Shown piece by piece: positions 27,437-36,133 of a DNA stretch of 40,796 nucleotides (its first letter is position 1; each line of letters starts with the position of its first letter). The translations under genes and the position numbers were made by a program. Source of the stretch: Rhodobacterales bacterium (GTDB lineage Bacteria > Pseudomonadota > Alphaproteobacteria > Rhodobacterales > Rhodobacteraceae); contig JAPLPF010000137.1 of NCBI GenBank assembly GCA_026400325.1, forward strand, positions 1,486 to 42,281, in the 5' to 3' direction. The notes beneath the pieces are model-generated. The model was not told the DNA's origin, did no database searches, and saw nothing but the letters and a program-made list of their open reading frames with translations.

Positions 27437-28321
27437 ATGCTGCCGCGCCGCTACCTTCCGCCGATCCCCGCGTTGATGGCGCTTGAGGCCGTCGATCGCC
27501 TTGGCACCGCCTCTGCCGCCGCCAGTGAACTGAACCTGACCCAAGGCGCCGTCAGCCGGGCCCTCATCGGGCTGGAAGGCCAGCTTGGTTTGCCGCTGCT
27601 GATCCGCGAACGCCAGCGCCTGCGACTGACCCCCGCAGCCCGCGACTATGTGGCCGAGGTCAGGAAAGCCCTTCATCTGCTTGCCTCAGCCTCGATCACG
27701 TTGCGCGCCAATCCGATGGGCGGCAGCCTCAACCTGGCCATTCTTCCCGCCTTTGGCATGCACTGGCTTGCGCCCCGCCTGGCCCGGTTTTCCCAGGCGC
27801 ATCCCGAAGTCACGGTGAACCTGTCCACCCGCCTGCGCCCCTTCGACTTTGCCACCGCCACCTTCGACGCGGCAATTCACTATGGTCGGCAGGACTGGCC
27901 AGGCGCGGACGATCTGAAACTCATGGAGGAAGAGGTCATTGCCGTCGCTGCCCCCGGCTTTCCGCCCATGGCCAGAGCCACAGACATCCTTGGACACCCG
28001 CTCCTCATGCTGGACAGCCGTCCGGGCGACTGGGGCCGCTGGCTTGCCCATCACGGGGCGCCTGGCCAACGACCATCCGGCATGATGTTCGACCAGTTTG
28101 CCACCCTTGGCCAGGCGGCGATCCATGGCATGGGGCTGGCCCTGATCCCCAGCTTCCTCATCACGCGCGAGCTTGCCGAACGCCGCCTCGTCCCGGTTTT
28201 TGGCCCCCCGGTTCCTGCGCATGGGGCCTATTACCTTGTCTGGCCCAAAGCCGGTCCCGACCGCCCCCCCCTGCGCTCGTTGCGCGATTGGCTTGTCGAA
28301 GAAATCGCCGATATGGCTTGA
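27437..28321 (+). CDS. LysR-family regulator divergent from gcdH
   Basis: A 294-aa LysR-type regulator of the GcvA-like group. The winged helix-turn-helix occupies residues 8-65, with the recognition helix in GTASAAASELNLTQGAVSRALIGLEGQLG. The effector-binding domain follows (ILPAFGMHWLAPRLARFSQAHPEVTVNLSTR to the end). The start ATG 27437 sits right after the T-N11-A palindrome. Divergence from gcdH with 88 bases between starts suggests it controls glutaryl-CoA metabolism, as GcdR does in Pseudomonas; that is inference. The regulated compound may be glutarate or glutaryl-CoA. Confidence 0.9.
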   Translation: MLPRRYLPPIPALMALEAVDRLGTASAAASELNLTQGAVSRALIGLEGQLGLPLLIRERQRLRLTPAARDYVAEVRKALHLLASASITLRANPMGGSLNLAILPAFGMHWLAPRLARFSQAHPEVTVNLSTRLRPFDFATATFDAAIHYGRQDWPGADDLKLMEEEVIAVAAPGFPPMARATDILGHPLLMLDSRPGDWGRWLAHHGAPGQRPSGMMFDQFATLGQAAIHGMGLALIPSFLITRELAERRLVPVFGPPVPAHGAYYLVWPKAGPDRPPLRSLRDWLVEEIADMA

Positions 28322-28370
28322 CCCCCGGCCCCCGGACCGACAGTCTCGCCACAGCAGCGCGAGGCAGGAT

Positions 28371-29282
28371 TTGACCGGTATTCCCAAAGACATCGACGCC
28401 GTCGAAACCCTGCTTTCCGGGCAGGGCTATGTCGCATCGCGTGCGTTGGCCACGGTTGTATTCCTTGCCCTGAAACTGGGCCGCCCCCTGTTTCTGGAAG
28501 GCGAGGCAGGGGTGGGCAAGACCGAGATCGCCAAGGTGATCGCCACCGCCCTTGGCCGCCGCCTGATCCGCCTGCAATGCCATGAAGGCCTCGACGCCGC
28601 CTCTGCGGTCGCCGACTGGAACTTCGCCGCCCAGATGATCGCCATCCGCACGGCCGAAGCCACCGGCGCGGGCGACCGTGATGCCCTCAGGTCCGAGCTT
28701 TTTACCGAAGACTACCTGATCGAACGCCCGCTTCTGGCCGCCATGCGCCCGCAACCCGGCGGCGCGCCCGTTCTCCTCATCGACGAAATCGACCGCACGG
28801 ATGAACCGTTCGAGGCGTTTCTTCTCGAAGCCCTTTCCGACTTCCAGGTCACCATCCCGGAACTTGGCACGATCCGCGCCCCTGAACCGCCCATCGTCAT
28901 TCTGACATCGAACCGCACGCGTGAAGTGCATGACGCCCTGAAGCGGCGCTGCCTTTACCACTGGGTCGATTACCCTGACTTCGACCGCGAGCTCCTGATC
29001 CTGCAGGCCCGCGTCCCCGAGGCCGAGGCCAGCCTCAGCCGCGAAGTCGTGGCCTTCGTCCAAAGGCTCCGCCGCGAGGACCTCTTCAAGCGCCCCGGCG
29101 TCGCCGAAGCCATCGACTGGGCCAAGTGCCTTCTTGCCCTCGACGTGATCACGCTGTCGCCGGACGTCATCTCCGATACCCTTGGTGCAATCCTGAAATA
29201 CCAGGACGACATCCAGAAACTGCAAGGCTCGGAAGCCGGACGCATCCTTGACGACGTCAGGCGCGAGCTTGTCCCTGCATGA
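28371..29282 (+). CDS. MoxR-type AAA ATPase, CoxD-like
   Basis: A 303-aa MoxR AAA+ ATPase. It has Walker A FLEGEAGVGKTEIAK, Walker B PVLLIDEIDRTDEPFEAFLLE, sensor 1 ILTSNRTREVHDALKRRC and the arginine finger in RRCLYHWVDYPDFDREL. CoxD of Oligotropha, a MoxR protein, remodels the CO-dehydrogenase active site with CoxE. I chose TTG 28371 (GAGG ten bases and AGGA five bases upstream) because the track's start at 28173 lies inside the LysR gene and no ATG or GTG fits better; this start is moderately sure. Together with the VWA gene and the XdhC-like gene it forms a coxD-E-F-like group. Confidence 0.87.
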   Translation: MTGIPKDIDAVETLLSGQGYVASRALATVVFLALKLGRPLFLEGEAGVGKTEIAKVIATALGRRLIRLQCHEGLDAASAVADWNFAAQMIAIRTAEATGAGDRDALRSELFTEDYLIERPLLAAMRPQPGGAPVLLIDEIDRTDEPFEAFLLEALSDFQVTIPELGTIRAPEPPIVILTSNRTREVHDALKRRCLYHWVDYPDFDRELLILQARVPEAEASLSREVVAFVQRLRREDLFKRPGVAEAIDWAKCLLALDVITLSPDVISDTLGAILKYQDDIQKLQGSEAGRILDDVRRELVPA

Positions 29283-29283
29283 C

Positions 29284-29339
29284 GATTCATCTGTCCAAAA
29301 ATATCCCACGGGGGGTCCGGGGGGTGTGAAACCCCCCGG
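29284..29339 (+). repeat. Dispersed intergenic repeat with hairpin (copy 5)
   Basis: Reads ATTCATCTGTCCAAAAATAT, then CCCACGGGGGGT and the hairpin CCGGGGGG-TGTGAAA-CCCCCCGG (29317-29339). Compared with 14184 the stem bases differ but the pairing and TGTGAAA loop are kept. It lies between the MoxR and VWA genes, 12 bases before the VWA start codon. Confidence 0.8.
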
Positions 29340-29351
29340 GTTTGGCCCAAA

Positions 29352-30611
29352 ATGCCCACGCCGGTCTCTTCCGACCTGACCCCTCCCGAAGACGGAAAGC
29401 TTGCCCACAACATCGCGCATTTCGCTCGTGCGCTGCGCAAGGCCGGGTTGCCGATCGGCCCCGGGCGCGTGCTCGATGCCATCCGGGCCGTCGAAATCAC
29501 GGGTTTTGACCGTCGCGAGGATTTCTACCACACGCTTCAGGCGGTTCTGGTCAGCCGCCCCGAAGAACGCATCGTCTTTGCTCAGGTCTTTCGCCTGTTC
29601 TGGCGCGACCCCCGCTATCTTGAACACATGATGACCCTGCTCTTGCCGCAAGTGCAGGGCGGGCAGGAAGAGCGTGTGGCCGAAGCCGCCGAACGGCGCG
29701 CGGCCGAGGCACTGCTTGACGGCCAGCTGCCGCCTCCGCCGCCCCAGACCAGCGACCCGGGGGAAGACATCACGATCGACGCGACGGCCACCATGTCCGC
29801 CGATGAGCGGCTGAGGACACTCGACTTCGAACAGATGTCGGCCGCGGAAACCGCCGAGGCCCAGCGGATGCTGGCCCGGCTGTCGCTGCCGGTCCGTCCG
29901 CTCGTCACCCGCCGCAGCCGCGGCAGCACCGTCGGGCCGATGATCGACGCACGCCGCACCTTGCGCGACGCACTCCGTCACGGTGGCGAGATTCGGACCC
30001 TGTCCCGCAAGGCTCCGGTCACCCGCTGGCCAAACCTGATCGTGATCTGCGACATCTCGGGCTCGATGGCCGATTACAGCCGTATGGTGCTGCATTTCGT
30101 CCATGCGGTGGCCAATCGCAGGGGGCAGGGCTGGGCCCGGGTGCATGCCTTTACCTTTGGCACCCGTCTTACCAACATCACCCGGCATCTGCAGGCCCGC
30201 GACGTTGACGCCGCCTTGAAAGCGGCAGGGCAAGAGGCGCAGGACTGGTCCGGCGGCACACGGATCGGGACGTGCCTGCAGCGTTTCAACCAGGACTGGT
30301 CCCGCCGGGTGCTGGGGCAGGGGGCGGTGGTCCTTCTGATCACCGACGGTCTGGACCGGGATGATGCGGGCGTCCTGTCGGCCCAGGTCGAGAGGCTGCA
30401 CCTGTCCTGCCGCCGCCTGATCTGGCTGAACCCGCTTCTGCGCTGGACCGGATTTGCGCCGAAGGCCGCCGGCATCCGGGCCATGCTGCCCCATGTCGAC
30501 AGCTTTCGCGCCGGCCATTCCATCGCCTCGCTCGAGGCGCTGGGGCGTGCAATCTCGGACGCAGGCGACACCGGCGAGAAAGCCCGGCTGCTTGCCACGT
30601 TGCAGAGCTAG
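29352..30611 (+). CDS. VWA-domain protein, CoxE-like
   Basis: A 419-aa protein of the CoxE family. The N-terminal helical part (residues 17-90, KLAHNIAHFARALRKAGLPIGPGR) is followed by an acidic linker and a von Willebrand A domain whose metal site is DISGSMADYSRM (about residues 233-245), then GGTRIGTCL and VLLITDGLDRDD. CoxE works with the MoxR ATPase CoxD to insert sulfur and copper into the CO-dehydrogenase active site in Oligotropha. ATG 29352 lies in sequence resembling the preceding repeat (GGCCCAAAATG). It follows the MoxR gene on the same strand. Confidence 0.9.
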   Translation: MPTPVSSDLTPPEDGKLAHNIAHFARALRKAGLPIGPGRVLDAIRAVEITGFDRREDFYHTLQAVLVSRPEERIVFAQVFRLFWRDPRYLEHMMTLLLPQVQGGQEERVAEAAERRAAEALLDGQLPPPPPQTSDPGEDITIDATATMSADERLRTLDFEQMSAAETAEAQRMLARLSLPVRPLVTRRSRGSTVGPMIDARRTLRDALRHGGEIRTLSRKAPVTRWPNLIVICDISGSMADYSRMVLHFVHAVANRRGQGWARVHAFTFGTRLTNITRHLQARDVDAALKAAGQEAQDWSGGTRIGTCLQRFNQDWSRRVLGQGAVVLLITDGLDRDDAGVLSAQVERLHLSCRRLIWLNPLLRWTGFAPKAAGIRAMLPHVDSFRAGHSIASLEALGRAISDAGDTGEKARLLATLQS

Positions 30612-30648
30612 GCATGCATTTGCCAATGCTATCACCCGTCAGCGTCGT

Positions 30649-30663
30649 GATATCGCATATCAG
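30649..30663. promoter_or_regulatory. Palindrome upstream of the OmpA-family gene
   Basis: TGATAT-CGC-ATATCA is a perfect 6-3-6 inverted repeat, AT-rich against its surroundings, 106 bases before the OmpA start in the 157-base gap after the VWA gene. It may be an operator or part of a promoter; no regulator can be assigned. Confidence 0.4.
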
Positions 30664-30768
30664 GTACAACCGGATTTAACTGCCCCTAGAACGACAGCCA
30701 GAAAGCCGCAGACGAATCATGCCGGTTGCCCATCGCAAGGTTAGTCGTTGCAAAGACAAGGAATGGTC

Positions 30769-32799
30769 ATGAGAAAGTTTCTGATTTCCACCACGGCGCT
30801 TTCGGTTGCGCTCAGCCAGGTCGGCACCGTACCAAGCTTTGCCCAGACGCTGGCCGAGGACGGCTCGGTGATCGGCACCGACGGGACTGTCCTGTGCTTG
30901 CCCACTGCCGACGTTGCGTGCAATCTGGAAGCGATCACTCAGGCCCTGCAGGCAGAAGCCGCCGCCGCGCAGGCCGCCGCTGATGCACAGGCGGCTGCCG
31001 ACGCGGAAGCTGCAGCACAGGCCGAGGCAGAAGCCGCCGCCGCGCAGGCCGCCGCTGATGCACAGGCGGCTGCCGACGTGGAAGCTGCAGCACAGGCCGA
31101 GGCAGACGCCGCCGCTGCTCAGGCAGCTGCCGACGCACAGGCCGCTGCCGACGTGGAAGCTGCAGCACAGGCCGAGGCAGACGCCGCCGCCGCTCAGGCC
31201 GCTGCCGATGCACAGGCCGCTGCCGATGCAGAAGCCGCAGCACAGGCCGAGGCAGACGCCACCGCCGCACAGGCTGCCGCCGAGGCGGACGCTGCTGCCG
31301 CACAGGCGGCTGCCGATGCACAGGCTGCTACCGACGCGGAGGCCACAGCCGAGGCGGATGCCGCTGCCGCACAGGCTGCCGCTGAAGCGGAGGCTGCGGC
31401 ACAGGCTGCGGCACAGGCTGCGGTTGAGGACACGACTGAAGCCGCGACGGATGTCGTGACTGACCCTGCGACCGGGGCTGTGATAGACCCCGCCGTCGCT
31501 GCTGCGGCACTTGCCGCAGCCGAGGCCGAGCTTGACATCTCGGACAGCGGCGAAATCGCCGACCCAGCCGCCGGCCTCAAGGTTGCGGATCCCGCCACGC
31601 TGGAGGTGACCGAACCGGTCGATGCGCCTGTCGTTTCGGAAGCCGAGGTCGAAAGCCTGACCGAACTTCTGACCATCGACCCCGCAGCCGTTGACCCTGC
31701 AGCGATTGCGGCGGCCGGAACGGTCGTGGCCGCTTCTGCCGAAGGAGAGGGTCCACTGGTCGTGGCACCCACTGATCCCGCACTGCTGGTTGGCTCGGTG
31801 ACAGAGACGATTGCAGCCGCAGGCACGCGCACGTCGGCGGACGAATTCGCGGCGGCCCCGACACGGCGCGAGGATGGCCGCAAGAGCGGGTTGTCCGATC
31901 TGGAAAAGGCCGGGTTGCTTGTCCTTGGCGCGCTGGCAGTCGGCGCGATCATCAAAAGCAACAATGACGCCCGCGATGACCGACGCGTGGTTTCCAACAC
32001 CGGTGACCGGGTGGTCGTGCTGCAACCGGACGGCACCTACCGGGTGCTGAAGGACGACGATACCCTGATCCGCCGCCCGGGATCGACCGTGCGGACCGAA
32101 ACGTTCACCGACGGTTCGACCCGCACGATCGTGGAACGTGACGACGGCACTCAGGTGGTGACGATCCGCGATGCGACCGGCCGTGTGCTGCGCCGTGCTT
32201 CCTATGACGACCGGGGCCGCGAGATCATTCTGATCGACGATCTTGGCCGCGAGGATGCCGTGGTCGTCAGTGAATTGCCAAAGCCGAAGTCGCGCATCGT
32301 GATTTCGTCCAAGGACAACGACGTCGCGCTCAAGCGCGAGCTTGCCGCGATCGAGGCGGAACGCGCCGGGCGGACCTTCTCGCTTCGCCAGATCCGCGAG
32401 ATTCCGCAGGTCAGGGCCCTTGCCGCCGTGATCGACACGCAGAACGTGACCTTCGCCAGCGGATCGTCCGCGATCCTGGCAGCCGAAGCGCGCAATCTGG
32501 CGGATCTTGGCCGGGTGATGCAGGATCTTCTGGAGGAGAACCCCGACGAAATCTTCCTTGTCGAGGGCCACACCGATGCGACCGGCAAGGCGGCGATGAA
32601 CCTTGCGCTGTCCGACCGCCGCGCGGAATCGGTGGCATTGGCCCTGACCGAATATTTCGACATTCCGCCGGAAAACATGGTCGTTCAGGGCTATGGTGAG
32701 ACCGAGCTTCTGATCGAGACGCAGGAAAGCGAAGCCGCAAACCGCCGGGTCGAAGTGCGGGTCATCACTCCCCTGATGCGGTCGGCGGCGCTGCGCTGA
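30769..32799 (+). CDS. OmpA-family outer-membrane/peptidoglycan-anchor protein with Ala-rich repeat domain
   Basis: A 676-aa secreted protein. Residues 1-26 are a signal peptide (MRKFLISTTALSVALSQVGT, cleavage near SFAQ-T). Residues about 62-219 are Ala-rich helix of 25-residue repeats of AEADAAAAQAAADAQAAAD type. A hydrophobic stretch LEKAGLLVLGALAVGAII is near 377-397. The C-terminal OmpA domain (about 548-672) has VTFASGSSAIL, EGHTDATGKAAMNLALSDRRAESV with peptidoglycan-contact Asp and Arg, and ANRRVEVRVI. AAGGA six bases before ATG 30769 supports that start over ATG 30763 or 30748. It interrupts a Cox-like gene group and ends in a strong terminator. Confidence 0.9.
   Translation: MRKFLISTTALSVALSQVGTVPSFAQTLAEDGSVIGTDGTVLCLPTADVACNLEAITQALQAEAAAAQAAADAQAAADAEAAAQAEAEAAAAQAAADAQAAADVEAAAQAEADAAAAQAAADAQAAADVEAAAQAEADAAAAQAAADAQAAADAEAAAQAEADATAAQAAAEADAAAAQAAADAQAATDAEATAEADAAAAQAAAEAEAAAQAAAQAAVEDTTEAATDVVTDPATGAVIDPAVAAAALAAAEAELDISDSGEIADPAAGLKVADPATLEVTEPVDAPVVSEAEVESLTELLTIDPAAVDPAAIAAAGTVVAASAEGEGPLVVAPTDPALLVGSVTETIAAAGTRTSADEFAAAPTRREDGRKSGLSDLEKAGLLVLGALAVGAIIKSNNDARDDRRVVSNTGDRVVVLQPDGTYRVLKDDDTLIRRPGSTVRTETFTDGSTRTIVERDDGTQVVTIRDATGRVLRRASYDDRGREIILIDDLGREDAVVVSELPKPKSRIVISSKDNDVALKRELAAIEAERAGRTFSLRQIREIPQVRALAAVIDTQNVTFASGSSAILAAEARNLADLGRVMQDLLEENPDEIFLVEGHTDATGKAAMNLALSDRRAESVALALTEYFDIPPENMVVQGYGETELLIETQESEAANRRVEVRVITPLMRSAALR
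30952..31425 (+). repeat. 75-bp tandem repeat inside the OmpA-family gene
   Basis: Four in-frame 75-bp units start at 30952, 31027, 31102 and 31177, each encoding about 25 residues (AEAxAAAAQAAADAQAAADxEAAAQ); units 1 and 2 are nearly identical. From 31252 the repeat decays into shorter Ala/Glu/Asp/Gln blocks. The unit count is likely to vary between strains. Confidence 0.9.
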
Positions 32800-32819
32800 G
32801 AGGCTATTGGGCGAAAGGG

Positions 32820-32858
32820 GCGCCGCAAGCTTGCTGCTTGCGGCGCTTTCCTTTCTTT
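32820..32858 (+). terminator. Intrinsic terminator of the OmpA-family gene
   Basis: GCGCCGCAAGC-TTGCT-GCTTGCGGCGC forms a perfect 11-bp stem followed by TTTCCTTTCTTTC, 21 bases after the OmpA stop. It should separate this gene from the XdhC gene downstream. Confidence 0.85.
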
Positions 32859-32895
32859 CGGCTCTTGCGCATAGTTTGCCCTGGAGGAGGCCATC

Positions 32896-33888
32896 ATGAC
32901 GCACGGCACGCACACGCACGACCAGATCCCCGAGGCCGCACTTGCCTGGCACCGGGACGGGCATGGATCGGTGCTTGCGACTGTGGTTGAAACCTGGGGC
33001 TCGGCACCGCGGCAGGCTGGCAGCCAGCTGGCGATTTCCGGCAAGGGCGAGATGATGGGGTCGGTGTCCGGCGGCTGTGTCGAGGGCGCCGTGGTCACCG
33101 AGGCGCTTGAGGCGTTGCAGGACCGTCAACCCCGCCTGCTGACCTTCGGGGTCAGCGACGACACGGCCTTTGCCGTGGGTCTGGCCTGCGGGGGCACGAT
33201 CCGGGTGCTTGTCGAACCGGTGGGTGAAGGCGACAAGGCGCTGCCCGAGGCCCTGCTTGCCGACCTTGTCGCCGCCCGCGCCGCCCATGAACCGGTGGCC
33301 ATCATGACCCGCACTGACCGCTGGCAGCGCAAACTGGTGTTTCCCGGAGAGGATGCCGCTACCGATGCCCGGTTCCGGTCCGACCGCGCCGGCATGGAAG
33401 AGGATGGCCGCTTCATTGCCGTGCACAATCCACCCCTTCGTCTTGTCGTGGTTGGGGCCGTCCACACGGCAAAGCCGCTTTTGACCATCGCACGCGCGTG
33501 CGGCTATGCGCCCACGCTGATCGATCCCCGCGACGCCTTCGGGTCGGCCGCGCGTTTCCCGGGCGAGACGATCCTGGGTGACTGGCCGGATGAAGCACTT
33601 GCCAGCCTGAACCCGGACGGCCGCACGGCCATCGTCACTCTGACCCACGACCCAAAGCTTGACGATCCTGCGCTTGCCATCGCGCTGCGGTCGCCCGCCT
33701 TCTATGTCGGTGCTTTGGGATCGAAAAAGACCCATGCCAAACGCGTCGAGCGGCTGACCGCCGTCGGCTTCACGCCCGCGGAGGTTGCCCGAATTCACGC
33801 CCCCGTAGGTCTGGATATCGGCGCACGCACCCCTGCCGAGATCGCGGTCAGCATCATGGCCCAGATCACTCAGACCTTGCGACAGTAA
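32896..33888 (+). CDS. XdhC/CoxF-family molybdenum-hydroxylase maturation protein
   Basis: A 330-aa XdhC protein. The N-terminal XdhC/CoxI domain has VETWGSAPRQAGSQLAIS and the conserved GSVSGGCVEGAV with its cysteine; the C-terminal Rossmann domain has RLVVVGAVHTAKPLL and a YVGALGSKKTHAKR loop. XdhC binds molybdenum cofactor and helps sulfurate it before insertion into xanthine dehydrogenase-family enzymes; CoxF/CoxI are the CO-dehydrogenase counterparts. GGAGGAGG stands six bases before ATG 32896. Its TAA overlaps the next ATG as TAATG (33886-33890), so it is coupled to the molybdopterin-binding gene. Confidence 0.92.
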   Translation: MTHGTHTHDQIPEAALAWHRDGHGSVLATVVETWGSAPRQAGSQLAISGKGEMMGSVSGGCVEGAVVTEALEALQDRQPRLLTFGVSDDTAFAVGLACGGTIRVLVEPVGEGDKALPEALLADLVAARAAHEPVAIMTRTDRWQRKLVFPGEDAATDARFRSDRAGMEEDGRFIAVHNPPLRLVVVGAVHTAKPLLTIARACGYAPTLIDPRDAFGSAARFPGETILGDWPDEALASLNPDGRTAIVTLTHDPKLDDPALAIALRSPAFYVGALGSKKTHAKRVERLTAVGFTPAEVARIHAPVGLDIGARTPAEIAVSIMAQITQTLRQ

Positions 33889-34901
33889 TGCGGTTCGGCT
33901 TTGTCCCGCTGGCGCAGGCAATGGGGGCGATCCTCGCACATTCGGTCGCCCTGGGTGACGGGCGGCTGCGCAAGGGCTGCATCCTTGGGCCGGGCGAGAT
34001 TGGCCGGCTTCAGGCCGCGGGTCTGACCGAAGTCACTGTCGCCCGACTTGACGCCGGCGACATTGCCGAGGATGCAGCCGCCCTGGCCGTGGCACGGGCG
34101 CTGGTGCCGAACCCGGTTGCGGCGGGGCTTGCCTTGCGTGCCGTGGGGACCGGCCGCGTCAACATCCATGCCGATGTGACAGGAGTTCTGGACCTTGCCG
34201 CCGACCTCGTGGATGCGCTGAACGCGATCGATCCGATGATCACGCTTGCTACCGTTCCGCGCTGGCAGCGCCTGTCGCGGGGGGACATGGCGGCCACCGT
34301 CAAGATCATCTCGTATGCGGTGGATGGTCCGGCCCTGGACGCCGCTTGCGACGCGGGCGCCGGGGCATTGCGGATGCGGCCCGTCGCCATGGCCCGCGCC
34401 GCGCTGATCCAGACCGTGACCGATGCCGACGACGGCGAAAAGGGCCACCGTGCAATCCAGAAACGTCTGTCTGCGATGCATGTGGTGATGATGCCGAAAT
34501 GCCTTGTCCCCCATCGCGAGGCCGAACTTGCCGCCGCCCTGAGTGCTGCTTCAGATGTGGATCTGATCCTGATCCTCACCGCCTCGGCCACGTCCGACCC
34601 GCAGGATGTGGGCCCGTCGGCTTTGCGGCGGGCGGGGGGCCAGGTCCTCCGTTTCGGGATGCCGGTCGATCCAGGCAACCTTCTGTTCCTTGGTCAGCTT
34701 GGCAGCGTGCCGGTCATCGGCCTGCCGGGATGTGCGAAAAGCCCCGCGCTGAACGGGGCCGACTGGGTGATGGAACGGCTGATCTGTGGGGTCCCCGTCA
34801 CCAGCGCAGACATTGCCGCGATGGGGGTAGGGGGGCTTTTGAAGGAAATCCCGCAACGCGGCAGACTGCGAGAGGCGGGGCCGATGAACGGTGAGGATTG
34901 A
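33888..34901 (+). CDS. Molybdopterin-binding protein (MoeA/CinA-like domain)
   Basis: A 337-aa cytosolic protein of the molybdopterin-binding group seen in rhodobacterial Mo-hydroxylase gene sets. It begins FVPLAQAMGAILAHSVALGDGRLRKG, a MoeA-like pattern, and the later DLILILTASATSDPQDVGPSAL and LPGCAKSPALNGADWVMERL form the MoCF-binding fold. Some relatives are longer, with a MobA-type nucleotidyltransferase after it; that domain is absent here. It is translationally coupled to XdhC by TAATG. It converges on infC, with a shared hairpin between them. Confidence 0.85.
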   Translation: MRFGFVPLAQAMGAILAHSVALGDGRLRKGCILGPGEIGRLQAAGLTEVTVARLDAGDIAEDAAALAVARALVPNPVAAGLALRAVGTGRVNIHADVTGVLDLAADLVDALNAIDPMITLATVPRWQRLSRGDMAATVKIISYAVDGPALDAACDAGAGALRMRPVAMARAALIQTVTDADDGEKGHRAIQKRLSAMHVVMMPKCLVPHREAELAAALSAASDVDLILILTASATSDPQDVGPSALRRAGGQVLRFGMPVDPGNLLFLGQLGSVPVIGLPGCAKSPALNGADWVMERLICGVPVTSADIAAMGVGGLLKEIPQRGRLREAGPMNGED

Positions 34902-35713: not shown

Positions 35714-36133
35714 ATGAACAGAACCTTCATCATCGGCGCAATCGTCGTCCTGCTGGCCGCTGGCGGCTATTACCAGTTCAGTTTCAAGCCGGCTCAAGAG
35801 GCCGCGATGGCTGTCGAAGCCGCCAAGAAAGCTGAGGAGGCCGCTGCTGCCGAAGCTGCTGCTGCCGAGGCTGCCGCTGCCGAGGCCGCTGCTGCCGCGA
35901 CCGCTGCTGCCGAAGCCGCTGCTGCCGAAGCTGCCGCTGCGGCAACTGCAGCTGCCACCGCCGCACTTGATCCTGCGGCCTTCAACGCCGACTCCGTTGT
36001 CGCACTTATCGACGGCTCTTCCCTCGACGACGCGATGAAAACCACGCTCAAGACCGCTGTTGAAGCTGCCCGCGCCAACCCGGCGCTGGTTGCCGACACC
36101 ATCGCTCAGGTCAAGACCGCTCTTGGCATGTGA
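35714..36133 (+). CDS. Small Ala-rich membrane-anchored protein
   Basis: A 139-aa protein of no recognised family. Residues 4-22 (TFIIGAIVVLLAAGGYYQF) form one membrane helix or uncleaved signal anchor. Residues 27-86 are almost pure Ala with Glu, Lys and Thr (EAAKKAEEAAAAEAAAAEAA), a long helix, probably periplasmic. The last 50 residues (ADSVVALIDGSSLDDAMKTTLKTAVEAA) look like a small folded helical domain. GGGAGA six bases before ATG 35714 supports the start; the track's start at 34958 lies antisense to infC. It ends in a strong terminator. Its Ala-rich helix recalls the OmpA-family protein's, so both may span the periplasm; that is inference. Confidence 0.8.
   Translation: MNRTFIIGAIVVLLAAGGYYQFSFKPAQEAAMAVEAAKKAEEAAAAEAAAAEAAAAEAAAAATAAAEAAAAEAAAAATAAATAALDPAAFNADSVVALIDGSSLDDAMKTTLKTAVEAARANPALVADTIAQVKTALGM

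Follow-up and report, generated by a model that had tools for sequence, protein, structure and literature searches.

The repeat tract of E. coli tolA is the nearest precedent for the locus described here. In 234 E. coli isolates, tolA carries 8-16 repeats of 15-18 bp in the region for an Ala/Lys-rich periplasmic helix, the repeat number alters stress tolerance, and contraction is RecA-dependent (Zhou et al. 2012, PMC3477136). In case of the Braun lipoprotein Lpp, envelope geometry is sensitive to the length of the helix (PMC8824477). Natural single alpha-helices (SAHs) studied so far depend on opposite charges (PMC9674830).

The DNA analysed, referred to as the window, is a stretch of 40,796 nt from a Tabrizicola-type alphaproteobacterium, which is the host of an OmpA-family protein with a repetitive Ala-rich array (Table 1). 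A close orthologue was found in 30 out of 32 genomes of the host genus, with several Tabrizicola species among the named relatives, and of the 150 genera sampled in the host's family, 50 contain the C-terminal module. Literature searches on this protein family revealed no paper. In-frame repeats, a long Ala-rich helix and variable length are shared with domain II of E. coli TolA, acids avoid position i+4 of each other in both proteins, and the TolA-like variation in the number of in-frame repeats of an Ala-rich helix is observed here between species. Unlike TolA with its units of 15-18 bp, Lys-acid pairs and near-neutral composition (35 acidic and 41 basic residues), the array has units of 75 bp, Gln-acid pairs, and 30 acidic and no basic residues in a 157-residue segment consisting of 66% Ala. 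Furthermore, TolA is anchored in the inner membrane by its N-terminus and lacks an OmpA domain. An identity with TolA was rejected, as TIGR02794 (tolA_full) produced no hit in the window genome and, in the genus, no hit above the cut-off. A separate TolA-like gene is situated beside tolB, as shown in relative G010, and at locus L180 (108-1327) the TolA-like gene upstream of tolB encodes a Pro/Glu (PEPE) linker where E. coli TolA has its Ala/Lys helix. The TolA orthologue of the host genus is Pro/Glu-rich, unlike that of E. coli.

Table 1. Features of the repeat-bearing OmpA-family gene and of the neighbouring small protein gene (positions in the window).
Feature	Position	Strand	Basis and remarks
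CDS of the repeat-bearing OmpA-family protein	30769..32799	+	ORF; MRKFLISTTALSVALS...; alternative in-frame ATG at 30763; MRK start motif shared by orthologues
Predicted Sec signal peptide, SPase I type (..PSFA↓Q)	30769..30843	+	Sequence; without lipobox
N-terminal head; its two conserved cysteines (codons 30895 and 30919) may form a disulphide loop	30844..30924	+	Orthologue alignment; first cysteine invariant, second at least 90% conserved
Continuous predicted alpha-helix, 142 residues	30925..31350	+	AlphaFold2 (AF2), residues 52-193; i+4 statistics
75-bp tandem repeat	30950..31283	+	Tandem Repeats Finder (TRF), 4.5 copies; 25-residue unit A-E/D-AAAAQAAADAQAAAD-A/V-EAAAQ-A-E; shuffle tests
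Decayed repeats, still Ala-rich	31284..31424	+	TRF periods 33, 51 and 108 bp
Acidic linker, largely unstructured	31425..31884	+	Low pLDDT (AF2)
Hydrophobic Gly-containing helix DLEKAGLLVLGALAVGAII, candidate membrane segment	31897..31953	+	Invariant L/G positions; Kyte-Doolittle 1.66 over 19 aa; AF2 helix 376-399, low confidence
Beta-strand meander domain	31984..32238	+	AF2 model; no match in Pfam search
OmpA-family peptidoglycan-binding domain PF00691	32449..32745	+	Pfam E 5.9e-16; fold search
Small protein: predicted N-terminal membrane anchor (MNRTFIIGAIVVLLAAGGYYQF), variable-length Ala-rich helix, conserved 55-aa C-terminal domain	35714..36133	+	Comparison of relatives; about 3 kb downstream; no Pfam family over cut-off

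The protein has the architecture of an exported protein, and its probable location is the periplasm. The C-terminal domain resembles that of OmpA and OprF in sequence and fold, with 59.1 bits for PF00691 (gathering cut-off 27.2) and a Foldseek probability of 1.00 to the OprF, OmpA and Pal domains. Unlike these porins, it is not preceded by a beta-barrel. A two-domain OmpA porin was thus rejected: the eight-stranded beta-barrel is absent, the N-terminus is modelled by AF2 as helix plus linker, and the Pfam search gave no match to a barrel family. The best NCBIfam match is the glycine zipper/OmpA lipoprotein YiaD (NF053611), in which a Gly-containing hydrophobic helix is likewise followed by an OmpA domain. 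A YiaD-type lipoprotein was also rejected, with a score of 69.2 bits against a cut-off of 175 and no lipobox in any of the 42 orthologues; moreover, YiaD lacks the long N-terminal helix and the beta domain. In the initial annotation the array was placed between the signal peptide and the OmpA domain. The array does not adjoin the OmpA domain, from which it is separated by about 340 residues comprising the acidic linker, the hydrophobic Gly-rich helix and the beta meander.

At the DNA level, Tandem Repeats Finder reported a period of 75, 92% matches and a score of 521 for positions 30950-31283, with units in exact register and frame at 30952, 31027, 31102 and 31177 and decaying units from 31252 through about 31424. 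The in-frame 75-bp repeats of the initial annotation, including their decayed copies, were thereby confirmed. Units 1 and 2 are separated by a single nucleotide out of 75 (99% identical), as expected from recent duplication or conversion. For the remaining unit pairs, 7-9 nucleotide differences were counted, 6-8 of them at third codon positions, which is consistent with constraint on the protein. Due to the fact that the array score of 517 exceeds the maxima of both 500 codon shuffles (205) and 500 synonymous-codon shuffles preserving the protein (458), the array reflects tandem duplication of DNA beyond the mere bias of an Ala-rich protein, and a reading based on composition only is ruled out.

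AF2, run with 39 orthologues, predicts one continuous helix with a pLDDT of 70-87 over most of its residues, which would extend over about 21 nm if straight (0.15 nm per residue). Since AF2 tends to draw a helix for Ala-rich sequence whatever the true state, independent evidence was sought in residue-spacing statistics. Residues four positions apart touch in an alpha-helix, and they do not on a strand or in a coil. A particular spacing of acids and Gln at this distance is thus a signature of selection for helix. In 38 orthologue arrays, acid-acid pairs occur at 0.03 (i+3) and 0.14 (i+4) of expectation and are enriched at i+2, i+6 and i+8. For Gln with an acid at i+4, a 4.1-fold enrichment was obtained (37 of 37 arrays). 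Asp or Glu is found at this position for 526 of 615 Gln residues across the orthologue arrays and for 16 of 18 in the window array, statistics that weigh less than the raw counts because the units of an array depend on one another and an 8-residue founder unit is common to many species. In the arrays containing Lys or Arg, acid-Lys and Lys-acid pairs are enriched at i+4 as well (3.6-fold and 4.4-fold, respectively, 12 of 12), and permutation of the residue identities at fixed polar positions gave p<0.05 in 37-38 of 38 arrays. Most weight for the helix rule is carried by convergent, unrelated repeat units elsewhere in the family, in which the same Gln-acid spacing recurs, namely (DQAAA)n with 27 of 28 and (DAQAAA)n with 18 of 18. 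Peptide studies of the 1990s described a Gln-Asp (i,i+4) contact that is stabilising. The helix proposed in the initial annotation is hence supported by a 142-residue AF2 prediction with which the i+4 spacing agrees, and the segment is predicted to be helical and not disordered. In orthologue arrays such as those of L066, L012 and L020, polar residues strictly alternate over stretches of up to 300 residues (period 2.00 residues); the window array departs from this parity and keeps the Gln-acid rule.

On balance, we favour the view that the array encodes a strongly acidic alpha-helix which is solitary and acts as the extensible spacer of an exported OmpA-family protein that binds peptidoglycan, its length being changed by repeat recombination. 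Most likely, the helix would hold the small two-cysteine N-terminal head off the C-terminal module of hydrophobic Gly helix, beta domain and OmpA domain, and keep the two distant. Acids spaced to avoid repulsion at i+3 and i+4 may render the helix soluble and stable without basic residues, and a Gln four residues before an acid may stabilise it further. Duplication and recombination of repeat units would expand and contract the DNA, with a spacer length that drifts fast between species and domains at both ends that stay constant.

For 23 genus members with complete genes, each species being represented by one genome, spacers of 213-356 aa (SD 35) were found vs. C-terminal parts of 411-425 aa (SD 4). 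The best repeat unit is species-dependent (24, 66, 75, 93, 108, 132, 150 bp and others), and the two members most alike in their C-termini (91% identity) have spacers that differ by 15 residues. The supposed variability in length is therefore strong between species, and a constant length is not observed at this level. A rival to the solitary helix is an acidic low-complexity linker without particular structure, for which GCN/GAN/CAG-rich duplications would give repeats of Ala, Glu, Asp and Gln and any hydrophilic acidic linker would be tolerated. Composition and unit differ in every species, and Pro/Glu-rich, basic and Ala-poor versions exist in relatives: the Ala helix is replaced by (EVAVEPVP)n, (APAEEPAAEE)n, basic Pro-rich or AERQ-type repeats in L069, L131, L122 and L135, with Pro/Glu-rich tandem repeats in L069 (3470-5254) and L131 and basic spacers in L122 and L135, and an Ala-rich spacer is absent from L080 and L085. 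Thus the helix is not essential throughout the family, and orthologues with repeats of the L069 type indicate that a rigid rod is not always needed. Nevertheless, unrelated units repeatedly show a near absence of acids at i+3/i+4 and an enrichment of Gln or Lys four residues away from acids, and AF2 predicts a helix, so that we regard an unstructured linker as rather unlikely.

According to the initial annotation, array length would adjust the reach from the outer membrane to the peptidoglycan. This appears doubtful, since the array precedes both the membrane-like helix (31897-31953) and the OmpA domain (32449-32745) in the protein, so that its length does not set their separation, and neither a beta-barrel nor a lipobox is present. 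Judged from its sequence, the segment is the sole membrane-like helix of the protein and a candidate membrane segment. If it crossed the outer membrane, the acidic helix and the cysteine head would form a surface stalk of variable length, the OmpA domain remaining inside, at the peptidoglycan. Such a topology would suit the conserved hydrophobic helix between array and OmpA domain as well as the hypervariability common among surface proteins, and a crossing of the inner membrane would place the OmpA domain in the cytoplasm. However, no route is known for exporting an N-terminal part of this kind to the surface, the candidate segment is short and marginal in hydrophobicity, and it is missing from Rhizobiales relatives; a surface stalk is consequently quite improbable.

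A solitary helix also has to be weighed against an Lpp-like coiled-coil oligomer, in which Ala-rich faces would pack as dimer or trimer into a stiff ruler. Like Lpp, in which length matters physically, the protein contains a predicted helix and belongs to the envelope. The long predicted helix and the close packing possible for Ala-rich faces agree with this idea, as does the periplasm width set by Lpp length in E. coli (PMC8824477). In contrast, neither the trimeric heptad coiled coil nor the lipid anchor of Lpp was found. No heptad or hendecad stripe was detected, with power at periods of 3.3-4.0 at noise level, the polar resultant round the helix is at most 0.10 in the window array vs. 0.32 in Lpp and 0.16 in TolA, and a charge of about -30 per 157 residues would repel partners. 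Due to the even distribution of polar residues round the helix, a classic coiled coil is unlikely and a solitary acidic helix, which would persist as such in solution, fits better; having failed the period and stripe tests, the oligomer is given very little credence. A long helix (predicted here), i+4 side-chain contacts and the lack of a coiled-coil stripe are shared with SAH proteins and Gln-based SAH designs (PMC9674830). Unlike natural SAHs with their opposite charges, the window array uses acids and Gln only: the opposite-charge i,i+3/i+4 pairs by which single alpha-helices are recognised are replaced by Gln-acid pairs, with zero basic residues.

That the observed copy number is not real and represents an artefact of assembly or composition is hardly credible, for although the source is a draft assembly of 233 contigs, units 1 and 2 are nearly identical, and five contigs of the genus begin inside the array, so that some short-read copy numbers may be wrong, many sites distinguish units 3 and 4 from 1 and 2, the array scores far above the shuffles, and a likewise long repetitive spacer is present in G005/L008, where most of the genome lies in one 4.19-Mb contig.

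The OmpA-type gene is flanked by AAA/CoxE-VWA genes on one side and, on the other, by an XdhC gene and a molybdopterin-binding-domain gene next to it (28173-34901, + strand). This arrangement, which occurs in most of the genus and in several other genera, places a structural envelope gene within a molybdoenzyme-maturation cluster.

The small protein encoded further downstream is apparently anchored in the inner membrane, and its EAAAA-type helix arises from 15-bp repeats (35843-35956). Its gene remains close to the OmpA-type gene also at loci such as L056 and L058, in which no xdhC-type genes were detected between the two. In the host genus, its length correlates with that of the spacer (Spearman 0.70 with n=20 and p 6.5e-4; r 0.58 and p 0.007 by independent contrasts; a value at least as high in 25 of 2000 label permutations), a correlation that is exploratory, was found after several other comparisons and is to be taken as a lead. 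RNase E, taken as a length control, was not significantly correlated with the spacer (0.42, p 0.07) and gave -0.09 with the small protein. For TolA linkers, which stem from 11 loci only and are nearly constant in length, no correlation was observed (0.07 with the spacer, n=10; 0.19 with the small protein, n=9); IF-2 varied little and was dropped. The Ala helix alone is not significantly correlated with the length of the small protein (rho -0.34), and the rest of the spacer gave 0.63. One might speculate that both proteins are matched repeat-built helical arms, meeting or lying side by side across the envelope, with co-varying lengths that record the envelope dimensions of each species, but we consider this proposal unlikely at present.

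The repeat-built, species-variable acidic helix is probably a variable helical spacer of the TolA kind with an unusual residue rule and a putative length link to its neighbour. More than 20 species form a natural series for comparing spacers of differing length in one and the same envelope protein, and the arrays offer a simple sequence rule for a long acidic helix without Lys or Arg, i.e., Gln four residues before an acid and no acids at i+3/i+4, which is testable in peptides. If the covariation with the anchored neighbour holds, envelope geometry would be readable from genomes.
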